Assembly: GCA_945869965.1 (NCBI GenBank) | Contig: CAMBRC010000010.1 | Span: 1-64,000, forward strand | Reading direction: 5' to 3' | From: Asaia bogorensis | Lineage (GTDB): Bacteria > Pseudomonadota > Alphaproteobacteria > Acetobacterales > Acetobacteraceae | Length of the DNA stretch: 64,000 nt | Shown here: one piece after another, positions 13,108-19,944 of the stretch | Position numbering within the stretch: position 1 is the first letter of the stretch | Layout of the letters: each line of letters starts with the position of its first letter | Program-made: the position numbers and the translations under genes | Notes under the pieces: model-generated | Seen by the model: only the letters and a program-made list of their open reading frames with translations | Database searches by the model: none | What the model was told of the DNA's origin: nothing

Positions 13108-14012
13108 TGCGGGCATGGGCACTTCTGCTCCTTGCTGCCCTGGTGCCCGCTGCTGCGCTGGTACCTGCCTCCGCGCAGGCCCAGCAGATCGACCTGTCCA
13201 GTGGCGGGCCAATTGCGATCACCGCGCGCGAAGGCTTCGAATGGCGTGAGGCGGAGCAGATGGTGGTGGCCACCGGCGATGCGCGCGCCGTGCGTGACAA
13301 CGTGACCGTCATCGCCGACCGGTTGATTGCCCGCTACCGCAAAAAGGCCGGGGCGTCGCCGGCCGGCACCGCGCAGCCCGGCGTGGCGGGCGATACCGGC
13401 GGCAACGAGATCTACCGGCTGGAGGCCGAGGGCAATGTCCGCATCTTCACCCCAACCGACGAGGCCGTCGGTGATCGCGCGGTTTACGACATCGACCAGG
13501 CGGTGATGGTGATGACCGGCCGCGGCCTGAAGCTGACCACGCCGAGCCAGGTGCTGACCGCGCGCGACAGCCTGGAATACTGGTCGCAGAAGCGCATGGC
13601 GGTGGCGCGCGGCAATGCGGTAGCGGTCACGTCCGATGCCCGCCGCCTGGCCGCTGACACGCTGGTGGCTTTCATCGAGGAGGACAAGCCGGCCGCGCCG
13701 CGGCCGGCGGTCGCGCCCGGTGGAACCGAGCCACCTGGGGCCAACAGCAAGCTCAAGCGCATGGAGGCCTATGGCAACGTGGAGGCGCGCACCGTGACCG
13801 ATATCGTGCGCGGCGATCGCGCCGTCTACCTGCCGGAAACCGGGGTGGCGCGGGTGATCGGCAATGTCCGCGTGACCAGCGGGCAAAACCAGATCAACGG
13901 CCCCGCTGCGGATGTGAACATGCGCACCGGGGTGGCCCGCATGCTGGCCGACCCCGGCGCGCGGGTTCAGGGCGTGATCATGCCAAACAGCACCCCCGGA
14001 GCGAGCCGTTGA
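13107..14012 (+). CDS. lptA: LPS transport periplasmic protein LptA
   Basis: LptA is the periplasmic bridge for lipopolysaccharide. The 301-residue product has a signal peptide ending near [11 protein letters not shown] and OstA-type repeats with [32 protein letters not shown] and [25 protein letters not shown]. It is longer than E. coli LptA (185 residues), with Pro/Ala-rich inserts around residues 85 and 195. ATG 13107 overlaps the lptC stop (TGATG); a GTG three bases earlier is also in frame. Its own stop overlaps the lptB start. Confidence 0.9.
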
Positions 14013-14815
14013 GCGCTGCATCAGGTGCGCCGCTGCGCGTGGTGACCGGTGAAGGTGCTGCCGCGCCAGCGCCGAGCGCCGCCGGAATCGCGGCCACCGG
14101 AATCGCGGCCACCGGGGTGGGGAAAGTTTATCGCAAGCGCCCGGTGGTGCGGAACGTCTCGATCAGCCTGCGCCGCGGCGAGGCGGTCGGCCTGCTTGGC
14201 CCGAACGGTGCCGGCAAGACCACCACCTTTTATATGATCGTCGGGCTGGTACAGCCGGATACCGGCACCATCAGCCTGGACGGTCATGACATCACCACGC
14301 TGCCGATGTACCGTCGCGCCCGGCTCGGCATTGGCTACCTGCCGCAGGAGGCCAGCGTGTTCCGCGGCCTGAATGTCGAGCAGAACGTGATGGCGGCGCT
14401 CGAAGTGGTCGAGCCCGACCGCGACCGGCGCGACCACATGCTGGAGGAGTTGCTGGCCGAATTCGGCATCGGCCATCTGCGCCGCACCCCGGCGCTGGCG
14501 CTGTCTGGCGGCGAGCGGCGGCGGGTGGAGATCGCGCGGGCGCTGGCGACGCAGCCCAGCTATGTCTTGCTCGACGAACCGTTGGCCGGCATCGACCCGA
14601 TCGCGGTGGGCGAAATTCGAGATTTGGTCTCACATTTGAAACACCGCGGTATCGGAGTGTTGATCACCGACCATAATGTTCGAGAAACCCTTGAAATCAT
14701 TGATCGCGCCTATATCATGCACGACGGCCAGGTGCTGATGGAGGGGGTGCCGCAGGAGGTGGTGGCGAACGAAGATGTGCGCCGTGTCTACCTGGGTGAA
14801 AGATTTTCGCTGTAA
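14009..14815 (+). CDS. lptB: LPS export ABC transporter ATP-binding protein LptB
   Basis: LptB powers lipopolysaccharide extraction from the inner membrane with LptF and LptG, which are not in this window. The 268-residue protein has Walker [10 protein letters not shown] (64-72), Q-loop YLPQEASVF, signature [15 protein letters not shown], Walker [13 protein letters not shown] and H-loop [10 protein letters not shown]. An N-terminal extension of about 35 residues precedes the conserved part and contains a perfect 15-base tandem duplication (14084-14098 and 14099-14113) encoding IAATG twice. The TTG start at 14009 overlaps the lptA stop; a later GTG at 14039 is an alternative. Confidence 0.94.
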
Positions 14816-14820
14816 ACTGC

Positions 14821-14837
14821 TTGGCATGACAATTGCT
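14821..14837 (+). promoter_or_regulatory. sigma-54 promoter in front of rpoN
   Basis: TTGGCATGACAATTGCT matches the sigma-54 consensus (YTGGCACGrNNNTTGCW) at 13 of 14 defined positions, with GG at 14823-14824 and GC at 14835-14836 in the required 10-base spacing. Transcription would start near 14848, leaving about 58 bases before the rpoN ATG. A second, weaker element (14837-14853, CACGCTTTTTGCT part) follows exactly 16 bases downstream but lacks the -24 GG. No enhancer site was identified. Confidence 0.65.
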
Positions 14838-14905
14838 GAGCACGCTTTTTGCTTTGACCGACTGGCCGGCCCTCCAGTGTGCCGTCCTGCGCCGGTGACC
14901 CTCTG

Positions 14906-16393
14906 ATGGCGATCGGGCCCCGTCTGGACCTGCGCCAATCGCAGACGCTGGTGATGACGCCGCAGCTGCGGCAGGCGATCAAGCTGTTGCAATTTAATAA
15001 CATAGAGGCGAACGCCTTCGTCGAGGAGGAGCTGGAACGCAACCCGCTGCTCGAGCGCGACGACCGGCCGGATGTTCCCGGCATCGAGCGCGCGGCACCC
15101 GACCAGGTGGCGATCCCCGGCGATGGCCCGGCCGATTCCGCCGTCGCCGCCGAATCCGGCCTGCTGCCGAGCGCCGATGCCGCCCCGCTGGAGATCGACG
15201 ACAGCAACAGCTACGACCCCGGCGGCGCCGGCGACGGGGTGCGCACCGGCAGCGGCGGCAACACCGCCTTCGACGACGACGAGCGCGGCCTGGACGACAT
15301 CGCCAATGCCGGACCGACGCTGCGCGAGCACCTCGGCGAGCAGATGCGCCTGAGCTTTCGCGATCCCGCCGACCGGCTGATCGGCGCCTATCTGATCGCG
15401 CTGCTGGAACCCTCGGGCCGGCTATCCGCCATGCCGCAGGCCCTGGCCGACGCCATGGGCACCCCGCTTGACCGGATCGAGGCGGTGCGAGCGCGGATGA
15501 TGCGCTTTGAGCCCGTCGGCATGTTCGCCACCTCGCTGGCGGAATGCCTGGCGGTCCAACTGGCCGAAAAGAACCGGCTGGACCCGGCGATGCAGGCGCT
15601 GCTCGACAACCTGGAATTGCTGGCGCGGCGCGAGCACAAGAAGTTGATGGCGGTTTGCGGCGTCGATGCCGCGGACCTGACCGACATGATGGCCGAGATC
15701 CGCGCGCTCGACCCCAAGCCCGGCGCCACCTGGGACGCGACCCCGCCGCTGCCGGTGGTGCCCGATATCCTGATGCGCCGGGCGCCGGATGGCGGCTGGC
15801 TGCTCGAGCTGAACCCCGAGACCATGCCGCGCGTGCTGGTGAACCAGAGCTTCACCGCCCGCGTGCTGTCCAACGCCAACAAGGACGACCGCGCCTTCGT
15901 CAACGACAAGCTGCAAACCGCGACCTGGCTGGTGAAGTCGCTGCAACAACGGGCCCAGACGATCCTGAAGGTGGCAGCCGAGATTGTCCGGCGCCAGGAC
16001 GCCTTCTTCCGCCTCGGCGTCGCGCATCTGCGCCCGCTAATCCTACGCGACGTGGCCGAGGCGACTGAACTGCACGAGAGCACGGTCAGCCGGGTGACCA
16101 GCAGCAAATACATCGCCACGCCACGCGGCACCTACGAGCTGAAATATTTTTTTACCACCGCGATCGGCGCCACCGAGGGCGGTGAAAGCCACAGCGCGGA
16201 ATCGATAAGACACCGTATCAACGCCATGATCGATGCCGAAACCGCCGACGATATCCTGTCGGATGACGCGATCGTGGCGGCACTGCGTCGCGAAGGCGTG
16301 GACATTGCCCGCCGGACCGTGGCCAAATATCGCGGTGCGCTGCGAATCCCAAGCTCGGTGCAGCGCAAACGGGAGAAAGCCGTGCCGGTCTGA
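14906..16393 (+). CDS. rpoN: RNA polymerase sigma-54 factor
   Basis: RpoN directs RNA polymerase to -24/-12 promoters of nitrogen, motility and other genes and needs ATP-dependent activators. From ATG 14906 the protein has 495 residues. Region I is LDLRQSQTLVMTPQLRQAIKLLQ-like; region II is acidic and Ala/Gly-rich (about 50-140); the core-binding and DNA-binding parts follow (HESTVSRVTSSKY), ending in the RpoN box ARRTVAKYR. An upstream ATG at 14879 would add nine residues unlike the family. It follows lptB by 90 bases and precedes hpf, the common proteobacterial order. ptsN is absent here. Confidence 0.96.
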   Translation: MAIGPRLDLRQSQTLVMTPQLRQAIKLLQFNNIEANAFVEEELERNPLLERDDRPDVPGIERAAPDQVAIPGDGPADSAVAAESGLLPSADAAPLEIDDSNSYDPGGAGDGVRTGSGGNTAFDDDERGLDDIANAGPTLREHLGEQMRLSFRDPADRLIGAYLIALLEPSGRLSAMPQALADAMGTPLDRIEAVRARMMRFEPVGMFATSLAECLAVQLAEKNRLDPAMQALLDNLELLARREHKKLMAVCGVDAADLTDMMAEIRALDPKPGATWDATPPLPVVPDILMRRAPDGGWLLELNPETMPRVLVNQSFTARVLSNANKDDRAFVNDKLQTATWLVKSLQQRAQTILKVAAEIVRRQDAFFRLGVAHLRPLILRDVAEATELHESTVSRVTSSKYIATPRGTYELKYFFTTAIGATEGGESHSAESIRHRINAMIDAETADDILSDDAIVAALRREGVDIARRTVAKYRGALRIPSSVQRKREKAVPV

Positions 16394-17233: not shown

Positions 17234-18463
17234 CTACCGCCCCATGTCGCGCAAAAAATCGAGCTGCCACCGCATCTCATCAACCGCCAGCGGAAACCCG
17301 CCGCTGGGCGTTGGCCGCAAGATGGTCGACGGATTGAGCCGCGCCAGCAGCGTCTGCAACGGCCCGGCGACATTCATCGTGAACCCCGCCTTCCACACCA
17401 GGCTGATCAGCCCCTTGGCGCTGCGCAGCGTCGCCGCGCGATCGACCACGGAGGCGGGCAGCTCGGCCGCCAGGGCCAGGATCGCGGTCGCCATGCGCGG
17501 TTCGCCACGCTGGATTGCCGCCAGCAGCGCCGCCTCGTCCAACTGATGCTCCGACAGCAACTGCTGTGCCTCGATCATCGCCTGGTCGATATCCGGATCG
17601 TGCCGGGTGCGCGCAGGTGGCGGGTTCAACCGCAGCTCAAGCCGCTGCCGCAACTCCCGCGCGGTCGCCAAGGGTAGGTCGGCGCGCCCGGCGAGCACAT
17701 CGAGCAGTTGCGTGGCGACATAGTCGGACAAAGCGCGGGCGGCGCGCTCGGACAGCTTCGGATGGCTCACCAGCGGCTTGTGCCATGCCTCGTGCGGCGC
17801 CCCCGCCATCGCCAGCATGTCCAGCGTCGACTCGCGGATCGCCGCGGTACTGTTGGACAACAGCGCGGTGATGGCACGCACATTGCTGGTCGCCGCCACC
17901 GCGTCGGCGACGTCCTCGGCAAGGCAGGGCCGGGCCGCGATCGACACCGCCACTTCGGCCGCCGGCGCACTGGCCAACAATGCCAGAAGGTCCTCCGAGC
18001 CCAGCAACGGCGACAATCGCACCACCGGGTCGAACACCGTCGTCGCCACATCGCGCGCCAGCTGCATGATGATGCTGCGTGGCGCCTGTGGCATGTCCTT
18101 GAGCACGTCGGCGATCGCCTCGCGCACGCGCACAGCCTCGTCGCTGACCAGCCGGTTCAGCGTGCCCAGCGCCCGCTCGCGTAACGCGGCGCGATCTGCC
18201 ACGCCGAGGTTGGGCACCAGGTTTGCCAGTTTGCGCGCCAACAGCGTGCGCACCCGCTCGTCACGGTCCTGTGCCAGCACCAGGTCGGTGTCGCCGGCGG
18301 CGGCCAGGTTCATCGCCACGGCGGCGCGCACCGTCACCGCGGGGTCGCTGGCCAGTGACCGCAGAACATGCGGCGCGGTGTCCGGTGCCGCGCCCAGACG
18401 CACCCGGGCGGCTTCCGTCGTGTCTTCGGCCGGCGCCAGCAGGGCGGTGTCATCGCGTGGCAT
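17234..18463 (-). CDS. DUF2336 domain protein
   Basis: This 409-residue, mostly helical, Ala/Leu-rich protein matches the DUF2336 family, which is found in Alphaproteobacteria and looks like HEAT-type helical repeats (for example VRAAVAMNLAAAGDTDLVLAQDRDERVRTLLARKLA). No catalytic motif is seen. ATG 18463 overlaps the stop of the diguanylate cyclase (ATGA), which is why this start was chosen over one ten codons upstream. Co-translation with a c-di-GMP synthase hints at a signalling role, but the function is not known. Confidence 0.85.
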   Translation of the reverse strand: MPRDDTALLAPAEDTTEAARVRLGAAPDTAPHVLRSLASDPAVTVRAAVAMNLAAAGDTDLVLAQDRDERVRTLLARKLANLVPNLGVADRAALRERALGTLNRLVSDEAVRVREAIADVLKDMPQAPRSIIMQLARDVATTVFDPVVRLSPLLGSEDLLALLASAPAAEVAVSIAARPCLAEDVADAVAATSNVRAITALLSNSTAAIRESTLDMLAMAGAPHEAWHKPLVSHPKLSERAARALSDYVATQLLDVLAGRADLPLATARELRQRLELRLNPPPARTRHDPDIDQAMIEAQQLLSEHQLDEAALLAAIQRGEPRMATAILALAAELPASVVDRAATLRSAKGLISLVWKAGFTMNVAGPLQTLLARLNPSTILRPTPSGGFPLAVDEMRWQLDFLRDMGR

Positions 18464-19944
18464 CACACCGCCTCCGCCCGCCAGGCGCGCCATTGGCCGC
18501 GCCCGGCGCGCTTGGCCTGGTACATCGCCTGGTCGGCACGTTGCAGCGTCTCGTCCAGCCCTTCGCGCATGGCCGGCCAGCGGGTGGCGATGCCGATCGA
18601 CATGCCGAGCCTGATCTCGTGCCCCCCGGTCAACTCGCGCAGCATCCGCGGCGCGGTGATGGTCAGGTGCTCGGCGCGTTCGGCAGCGGTCAGATCATCG
18701 GCACCGTCCAGCCACAGGGCGAATTCGTCGCCGCCGAGGCGCGCCACCAGGTCGGACGGCCGCACCGTGTCGCGCAACAGGTCGGCCACCAGGCACAGCG
18801 CCTCGTCGCCAACGTCATGGCCGCATTGGTCGTTGAGCTGCTTGAACGCGTCCAGGTCGACAAACAGGATCGTGCCCGGCTGGCCCTCGCGGCTCAGCCG
18901 GTCGATGCGCCGGCCCATCTCGTCAAGGAACGCGCGGCGGTTCAGCAATCCGGTCAGCGGGTCGGTGCGGGCCTGTTGGTTCATGTCGCGCTGCATCGCC
19001 TCGTGCTGCAAGATCACGCGGATGATGCTGTTGATCGAGTTCGCCAGGGGATGGTCATCGGCATCCCATGGCCGCCCCCCCAACCCGCGCCACAGCGCCA
19101 GCGCCGCGGTTTGACTGCCGCTCGTCTGGGCCGGACAGGCAAGGGTCCAACGGCCATCGTTTGCCATGGCATCGCCCACCCCGGTCGTATTTGCCTCGAT
19201 CAGCGACATCGCGGTGTGCACCACCGCGGCGCTGGGCACGCCGATCTGGTGCAGGAAGGCAGCCTGAACGCCGTCTCCCAGCAGGTCGATCACCACGGCG
19301 CCCTCCGCCCCCATCGAGGTGACCATCGCGCCCAGGGCGGCCTTCATCATCCGCGGCGCCTGCACTTCCTTGTTCATCGCGGCAAGGATGTGTTCCACCA
19401 CTTGACTGCGGCGCAGCGCTGCGGCCAGGCGGCCTTCGTGCAGGTCCTGCTCGGTGATGTCCTGGCCCACGCCACGGGCGCCAATGATGTTGCCCTGGTC
19501 GTCCAGGATCGGGGCGGCGCTGAAAGTGAGGCAGATCGCACTGCCGTCCGGACGCCGCAACCAGGCGCGACGGCCACGGGTGCGCACGGTCGGCTGGAAC
19601 GGGTCGAACCCGGTCAGCCCCGCCGCATCGGCGAGCAAAAGTGCTGCCGGCTGGCCGATCAGCAAACTGCTGGACCAGCCGATTGCCGGGTCCGGCGCAA
19701 TGAAGACAAAGCGGCCATGCGCATCGGTTTCGAATGCGATGTCGGCGGACAGGTTGACCAGTTCGCGCCAGCGCTGTCGGCTCTCCAGGAGGGCGGCGTT
19801 CAGCGCGTCGCGACGCGCTGCGCCGATGTCCGCCGCGCCGGCGGGACCGCCGTCGGGCATGGCAAGCTCGCCTGCCCGGCTGTCCGGTCGGGGCAGCTGC
19901 GGCGCGATGAAGGCGACCGGTCCGGCTTCGGGTGCCAGGGGCAT
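18463..19944 (-). CDS. diguanylate cyclase with PAS and GAF-like sensor domains
   Basis: The 493-residue protein makes c-di-GMP from two GTP. A PAS-like domain lies at about 55-175 (WRELVNLSADIAFETDAHGRF, RPDGSAICLTFSAAPILDDQG), a GAF-like region at about 185-310, and a GGDEF domain at about 325-490. The active-site motif GGDEF is intact in ARLGGDEFALW, preceded by DPLTGLLNRRAF and DLDAFKQLND. An inhibitory I-site RPSD lies five residues before GGDEF, so product inhibition is expected. There is no signal peptide or membrane helix. ATG 19944 has AGGAG upstream; the longer open frame to 20394 overlaps dapD and is rejected. Confidence 0.92.
   Translation of the reverse strand: MPLAPEAGPVAFIAPQLPRPDSRAGELAMPDGGPAGAADIGAARRDALNAALLESRQRWRELVNLSADIAFETDAHGRFVFIAPDPAIGWSSSLLIGQPAALLLADAAGLTGFDPFQPTVRTRGRRAWLRRPDGSAICLTFSAAPILDDQGNIIGARGVGQDITEQDLHEGRLAAALRRSQVVEHILAAMNKEVQAPRMMKAALGAMVTSMGAEGAVVIDLLGDGVQAAFLHQIGVPSAAVVHTAMSLIEANTTGVGDAMANDGRWTLACPAQTSGSQTAALALWRGLGGRPWDADDHPLANSINSIIRVILQHEAMQRDMNQQARTDPLTGLLNRRAFLDEMGRRIDRLSREGQPGTILFVDLDAFKQLNDQCGHDVGDEALCLVADLLRDTVRPSDLVARLGGDEFALWLDGADDLTAAERAEHLTITAPRMLRELTGGHEIRLGMSIGIATRWPAMREGLDETLQRADQAMYQAKRAGRGQWRAWRAEAV

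Follow-up and report, generated by a model that had tools for sequence, protein, structure and literature searches.

A 32-bp segment directly upstream of rpoN (positions 14822-14853) in the 64,000-nucleotide stretch of Asaia bogorensis DNA analysed here (the window) appears to consist of two abutting sigma-54 sites, and sigma-54 RNA polymerase probably controls the gene for its own sigma factor through this pair. Autoregulation of rpoN is already known as a kind; what is new is the tandem layout and a dedicated site with AG in place of GG (the AG site). The passage of PMC3538637 that cites Clark et al. 2001 describes rpoN of Rhizobium leguminosarum VF39SM as negatively autoregulated, and a 2025 survey (PMC12316311) predicted sigma-54 targets in alphaproteobacteria and other classes and reported an enrichment of rpoN among them. 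The window resembles both the R. leguminosarum case and the class-wide prediction in placing rpoN under the control of its own product, here by prediction. Here, however, a full element and an AG element stand in tandem, and the predicted sigma-54 site is common to a clade of Acetobacteraceae. Our search of the literature found no paper naming both Acetobacteraceae and sigma54 or rpoN.

The genes in the window follow the usual order lptC-lptA-lptB-rpoN-hpf. An open reading frame at 14009-14815 (plus strand) encodes LptB, the ATPase of the LPS-export ABC transporter (Pfam ABC_tran; NCBIfam TIGR04406, 367.8 bits, over the cut-off). The rpoN gene (plus strand) starts with an ATG at 14906 and ends at 16393; its sigma-54 product matches TIGR02395 with 389.6 bits, has the activator-interacting (AID), core-binding (CBD) and DNA-binding (DBD) domains, and carries the RpoN box ARRTVAKYR, as read from the translation. 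Sequence and open reading frames delimit a 90-bp intergenic region on the plus strand (14816-14905), which contains both elements directly 5′ of rpoN, on the same strand and with no gene in between.

Element 1 (14822-14837, plus strand; TGGCATG-ACAA-TTGCT) is a full sigma-54 −24/−12 element by its letter pattern, its rarity and its invariance in the genus. The sequence TTGGCATGACAATTGCT at 14821-14837 begins 6 bp past the lptB stop codon and 84 bp ahead of the rpoN ATG. GG at 14823-14824 (−25/−24) and GC at 14835-14836 (−13/−12) are 10 bp apart, in agreement with the exact −24/−12 spacing claimed by an earlier note on this DNA. That note had also counted 13 of 14 consensus positions as matching; our recount gives 12 of 13 for YTGGCACG-N4-TTGCW, and the core TGGCATGACAATTGCT departs from TGGCACG-N4-TTGCW only at −21, where it has T in place of C. 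In its GG and GC pairs, exact spacing, matching letters and free N4, element 1 is like known sigma-54 promoters, whereas A stands at −25 in element 2 and in the lone site of the sister genera. A transcript from element 1 is predicted to start near 14848.

The strict motif TGGCAYG-N4-TTGCW has eight matches in the 4.7-Mb genome versus none for the reversed pattern, a control that preserves composition and not coding bias. By arithmetic from the genome density, the chance of meeting the strict motif in the ~75 positions of the intergenic strand is ~6e-5. The weight matrix used for scoring was built from the consensus, and our conclusions rest on plain letter patterns rather than on matrix scores. 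The match could in principle be accidental and functionless, with rpoN transcribed by read-through from lptB. Motifs with up to two mismatches are no commoner in the window than in shuffles (16 found, 14.4 expected), and rpoN simply follows lptB in most alphaproteobacteria. The genus alignment, in which the defined letters are conserved against a varying background, and the recurrence of a site at the same place family-wide both speak against an accident, which we find scarcely credible.

Both elements, with the same 16-bp spacing, lie between lptB and rpoN in all nine genomes of the genus. In element 1, none of the 12 defined columns varies, against all 10 of the tested flank and spacer columns (Fisher P=1.5e-6), and for both elements jointly 2 of 22 defined columns vary against 19 of 24 others (P=1.5e-6), P values that are merely indicative because the nine genomes are related and the columns are not independent events. 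The spacer of element 1 reads ACAA, CCCC, CACC or CCGA. Both of the varying defined columns, C/T at −21 and A/T at −11, belong to element 2, and both changes are tolerated by sigma-54. The alignment shows that selection maintains element 1 as a full −24/−12 element in the genus, and the pattern of constraint over the two elements is the signature of sigma-54 recognition. The near-perfect element that the earlier note had seen directly upstream of rpoN is real and selected, with GG and GC pairs that are invariant in the genus. That note had named conservation of these pairs in relatives as a point on which its proposal could fail, and the proposal held, because the defined positions of element 1 are invariant in the nine genomes while flank and spacer vary.

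The same alignment bears on whether the stretch is instead the intrinsic terminator of the lpt operon, formed by a hairpin at 14818-14842 and the following CGCTTTTTGC. A scan gave a 9-pair stem and then a T run at this place, and the window sequence folds at −12.8 kcal/mol (z −1.7). That scan found five such matches in 3.5 kb where two are expected by chance, however, and the genus genomes outside the sister species G006 fold differently (z +0.7 to −1.6). In eight of the nine genus genomes the T run is interrupted and reads TTCTTGC, and the letters that are conserved are those of sigma-54 sites. Because neither the fold nor the T run is kept in the genus, we reject an intrinsic terminator as very improbable.

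Element 2 (14838-14853, plus strand; GAGCACG-CTTT-TTGCT), the counterpart of the sister-genera site NAGCACGATTCTTGCTTGC, abuts element 1 as GAGCACGCTTTTTGCT, starting exactly 16 bp downstream, where the earlier note had rightly placed a second partial element without the −24 GG. It has two mismatches and agrees with sigma-54 sites in the −24 core (GCAYG) and at −12 (TTGCW), with A replacing G at −25. The −25/−24 pair is AG in the window, in all nine genus genomes and in most sister genera, and because AG stands in place of GG we class element 2 as a sigma-54-like site, not a full sigma-54 promoter. A start from element 2, if any, would fall at about 14864.

The region 5′ of rpoN was compared in 129 genomes, mostly one or a few per genus of Acetobacteraceae. 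An element of more than 9 bits lies within 200 bp upstream of rpoN in 41 of the 129, nearly all Acetobacteraceae, with one match in reversed sequence and one in the adjacent coding stretch farther upstream as controls; the count of 41 includes three genomes with TGGCATGGCTTTTGCT at the rpoN start codon. Matches of this kind, in which TGGCATGGCTTTTGCT or CGGCATGGCGATTGCA falls on the rpoN start codon, partly reflect coding (ATG GCN NTT GCN) and were given no weight in our reasoning. In three species of one genus (G099, G216 and G170; L144, L146 and L148), TGGCATGGCTYTTGCT runs across the likely rpoN start codon and may be either a chance product of the coding sequence or a sigma-54 site placed over that codon.

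A single matching site precedes rpoN in at least 16 further genera of Acetobacteraceae, in most cases NAGCACGATTCTTGCTTGC, whose −25 letter is A. This commonest form is found 84-124 bp ahead of rpoN in about 15 genera, and variants whose −25 letter is T, C or G are found in those genera and in one more. When one mismatch is allowed, the 18-bp core NAGCACGATTCTTGCTTGC is present in 15 of 120 genomes, once in each, and every match lies just upstream of rpoN, as judged against the rpoN coordinates. Acetobacter has TGGCACGGTTTTTGCG before rpoN, and just downstream of it (L018-L020) are TTTCATGAAA-type inverted repeats, possibly hairpin-forming or operators.

In the tree of RpoN proteins, all 21 rows of one supported clade, the window's genus among them, have an element, and the GG tandem occurs in the window's genus only. 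Other lineages also gained second or tandem sites, at a distance of 19 bp in G107 and G219, which are two species of another genus, and of 45 bp in G129 and G185, from a third genus. The simplest history suggested by this distribution is that the GG-less element is the older and wider one and that the perfect GG element was gained in the window's genus. This reverses the earlier note, which had treated the second element as accessory to the first: the GG-less one, present in at least 16 other genera, would be ancestral and the perfect one is genus-specific. Forty genomes of other alphaproteobacterial families yielded one clear element: at L215 (G263), where rpoN follows an RNase D gene, a perfect TGGCACGCTTCTTGCT stands between the two, an independent case of this arrangement. 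In the remaining alphaproteobacteria outside the family, rpoN mostly lies 8-30 bp behind lptB without a site, in keeping with the earlier note's remark that housekeeping promoters usually drive rpoN downstream of lptB. Class-level matches such as GGGCATACATCTTGCA were rejected as sites, being lptB coding sequence.

This distribution also weighs on a simpler reading of the pair, in which element 1 is an ordinary activator-dependent promoter conferring simple positive autoregulation and element 2 is a functionless relic in decay. Element 1 is indeed invariant with the full GG/GC pattern, and positive feedback is known at the NifA-driven prxS-rpoN2 of rhizobia (PMC3538637). We nevertheless consider a relic unlikely: within the genus, element 2 is preserved to the same degree as element 1 once changes that sigma-54 tolerates are set aside, and, unlike a relic, it is conserved across more genera than element 1.

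Alignment of 26 distinct rpoN elements revealed G3, C4, T12, T13, G14 and C15 in all 26 and A5 and G7 in 25, with the four spacer positions the least conserved, positions 1 and 2 aside. The letters retained are, judged from this set, the sigma-54 letters. We also counted both forms in 26 genomes, taking totals as sums over the columns of a per-genome table. The GG form GGCACG-N4-TTGCW has 218 matches versus 107 for the reversed control, and the AG form has 64, of which 43 are non-rpoN versus 54 in the control. Because these non-rpoN matches are not in excess, AG is not a normal promoter variant in those genomes. The earlier note had suggested that the GG-less site binds sigma-54 without opening and acts as a repressor; the absence of an AG excess elsewhere in the 26 genomes fits this, and we carry the repressor role forward as a proposal. 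The AG element is expected to bind sigma-54 more weakly, and we infer that element 2 may act as a brake. In the same 26 genomes, GGCACGTGCGTTGCT appears about once per genome in nearly all of those listed and, because of this recurrence, probably lies in a conserved gene and not in a promoter.

In the sister genera, conservation of the spacer ATTC and of the A at −25 goes beyond the needs of an ordinary sigma-54 site, and because of this surplus a second protein may also read the site there. Carried further, the AG element would be read chiefly by another dimeric regulator, as a near-palindrome (AGCACGATTCTTGCT, 6 of 7 pairs), or its GATTC would be a GANTC site for CcrM/GcrA cell-cycle control, leaving the sigma-54 likeness secondary. 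The conserved ATTC and A raise the symmetry, GATTC fits GANTC, GcrA is present in 20 of 20 genomes tested and the genomes contain no further copy of the 18-bp motif. Yet pair (6,12) is complementary in 0 of 26 variants although both of its letters are conserved, and because it is never complementary a plain palindrome is disfavoured. Pairs (8,10), (2,16) and (7,11) likewise fail in 16, 12 and 11 of the 26, while the sigma-54 letters stay. The window's genus, which has GCTTC or GCTTT, and others have lost the GANTC match, and GcrA is equally present in genomes without the site. As the sole explanation, GcrA/CcrM was rejected, since the occurrence of GcrA in every genome tested, irrespective of a GATTC site, is uninformative. 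Overall, we give a primary role for another regulator a low probability and retain recognition by sigma-54 as the preferred reading.

In many sister genera (including L160-L174), a second conserved block, CGCGCTGCACTGC, follows the AG site TTGCTTGC at a constant distance of 15 nt. This block is nearly palindromic and might represent a −10 region, the region of a transcript start or the site of another regulator. We conjecture that, with TTGCCA, it might form a GC-rich housekeeping promoter (TTGCCA-N17-TGCACT) with its −35 overlapped by the AG site; no promoter of this type is visible in the window's genus. In the window, a TTGACC-like stretch after element 2 (14854-14860, plus strand; YYGAYC in the genus alignment) is a weak candidate for a housekeeping −35, for which no good −10 was found and at which a scan gave no sigma-70-type match.

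In the model that we propose for the paired sigma-54 sites, element 1 would be the working promoter, producing rpoN mRNA from ~14848 once an enhancer-binding protein is active, most likely NtrC or NtrX. Element 2 would bind the sigma-54 holoenzyme weakly and without opening and, when occupied, would cover the start site of element 1; in the sister genera, an occupied AG site would cover the −35 of the possible housekeeping promoter. Rising sigma-54 would lower rpoN transcription because the occupied site masks the start or, in the sister genera, the −35, and because of the 16-bp spacing the two elements could not be occupied together. As a net outcome, rpoN would be autoregulated, with an upper limit built into its expression, and the history of the pair would be the addition of a full −24/−12 promoter beside an ancestral, probably non-initiating sigma-54 site. 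More tentatively, the AG site in the Acetobacteraceae clade could be a dedicated, rpoN-only operator at which polymerase binds without initiating, sigma-54 repressing its own gene through a weakened promoter, and the second sites added by several lineages could turn this brake into a two-state switch; we offer this as a possibility on which we would not rely.

The genome encodes five full-length sigma-54 activator proteins alongside rpoN. NtrC scored over its cut-off, a FlbD-like activator reached 698 bits, below the cut-off of 750, and NtrX was assigned by its position after an NtrY-like kinase. NifA was not among the enhancer-binding proteins (bEBPs) of the genome and no NifA-type enhancer (TGT-N10-ACA) occurs within 1.5 kb upstream; control of rpoN by NifA was rejected on these two grounds. 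In the genus alignment, no clear protected patch emerges from the synonymous changes near the 3′ end of lptB, and the search for the NifA-type motif or a protected lptB patch identified no enhancer site upstream of the pair.

Two known systems share parts of this logic. In rhizobia, prxS-rpoN2 is driven by NifA and sigma-54 (PMC3538637) and, as predicted here, a sigma-54 promoter raises a sigma-54 gene. There, however, NifA activates an operon promoter during symbiosis, whereas no NifA was found here and the site lies directly before the housekeeping rpoN, after lptB. At glmY/glmZ of Salmonella, overlapping sigma-54 and sigma-70 promoters bring the two polymerases into competition (PMC3844500). 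There, as proposed for the AG site, sigma-54 polymerase at one site can bar another from an overlapping promoter, although the competing housekeeping promoter is here a possible one, suggested by TTGCCA-N17-TGCACT in the sister genera.

The family-wide conserved site before rpoN suggests that the sigma-54 level is itself under control in these bacteria. Usually this level is taken to be constant and regulation is ascribed to the activators. The conserved AG variant would make it possible to ask, in a natural setting, whether a closed complex of sigma-54 can act as a dedicated repressor, and the repeated gain of a second site would provide independent evolutionary replicates.

Strict sigma-54-type sites occur elsewhere as well. 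A perfect TGGCACGCACATTGCT at window positions 17872-17887 (plus strand) lies inside and antisense to the open reading frame 17234-18493 (minus strand), as an intragenic sigma-54-like site. Other strict sites of the genome (G000 C93, C99, C49 and C37; L059, L060, L056 and L055) are near genes that look secreted or exopolysaccharide-related and near an FtsH-like protease, and one of them lies 76 bp after a gene for a PEP-CTERM/LuxO-like sigma-54 response regulator.
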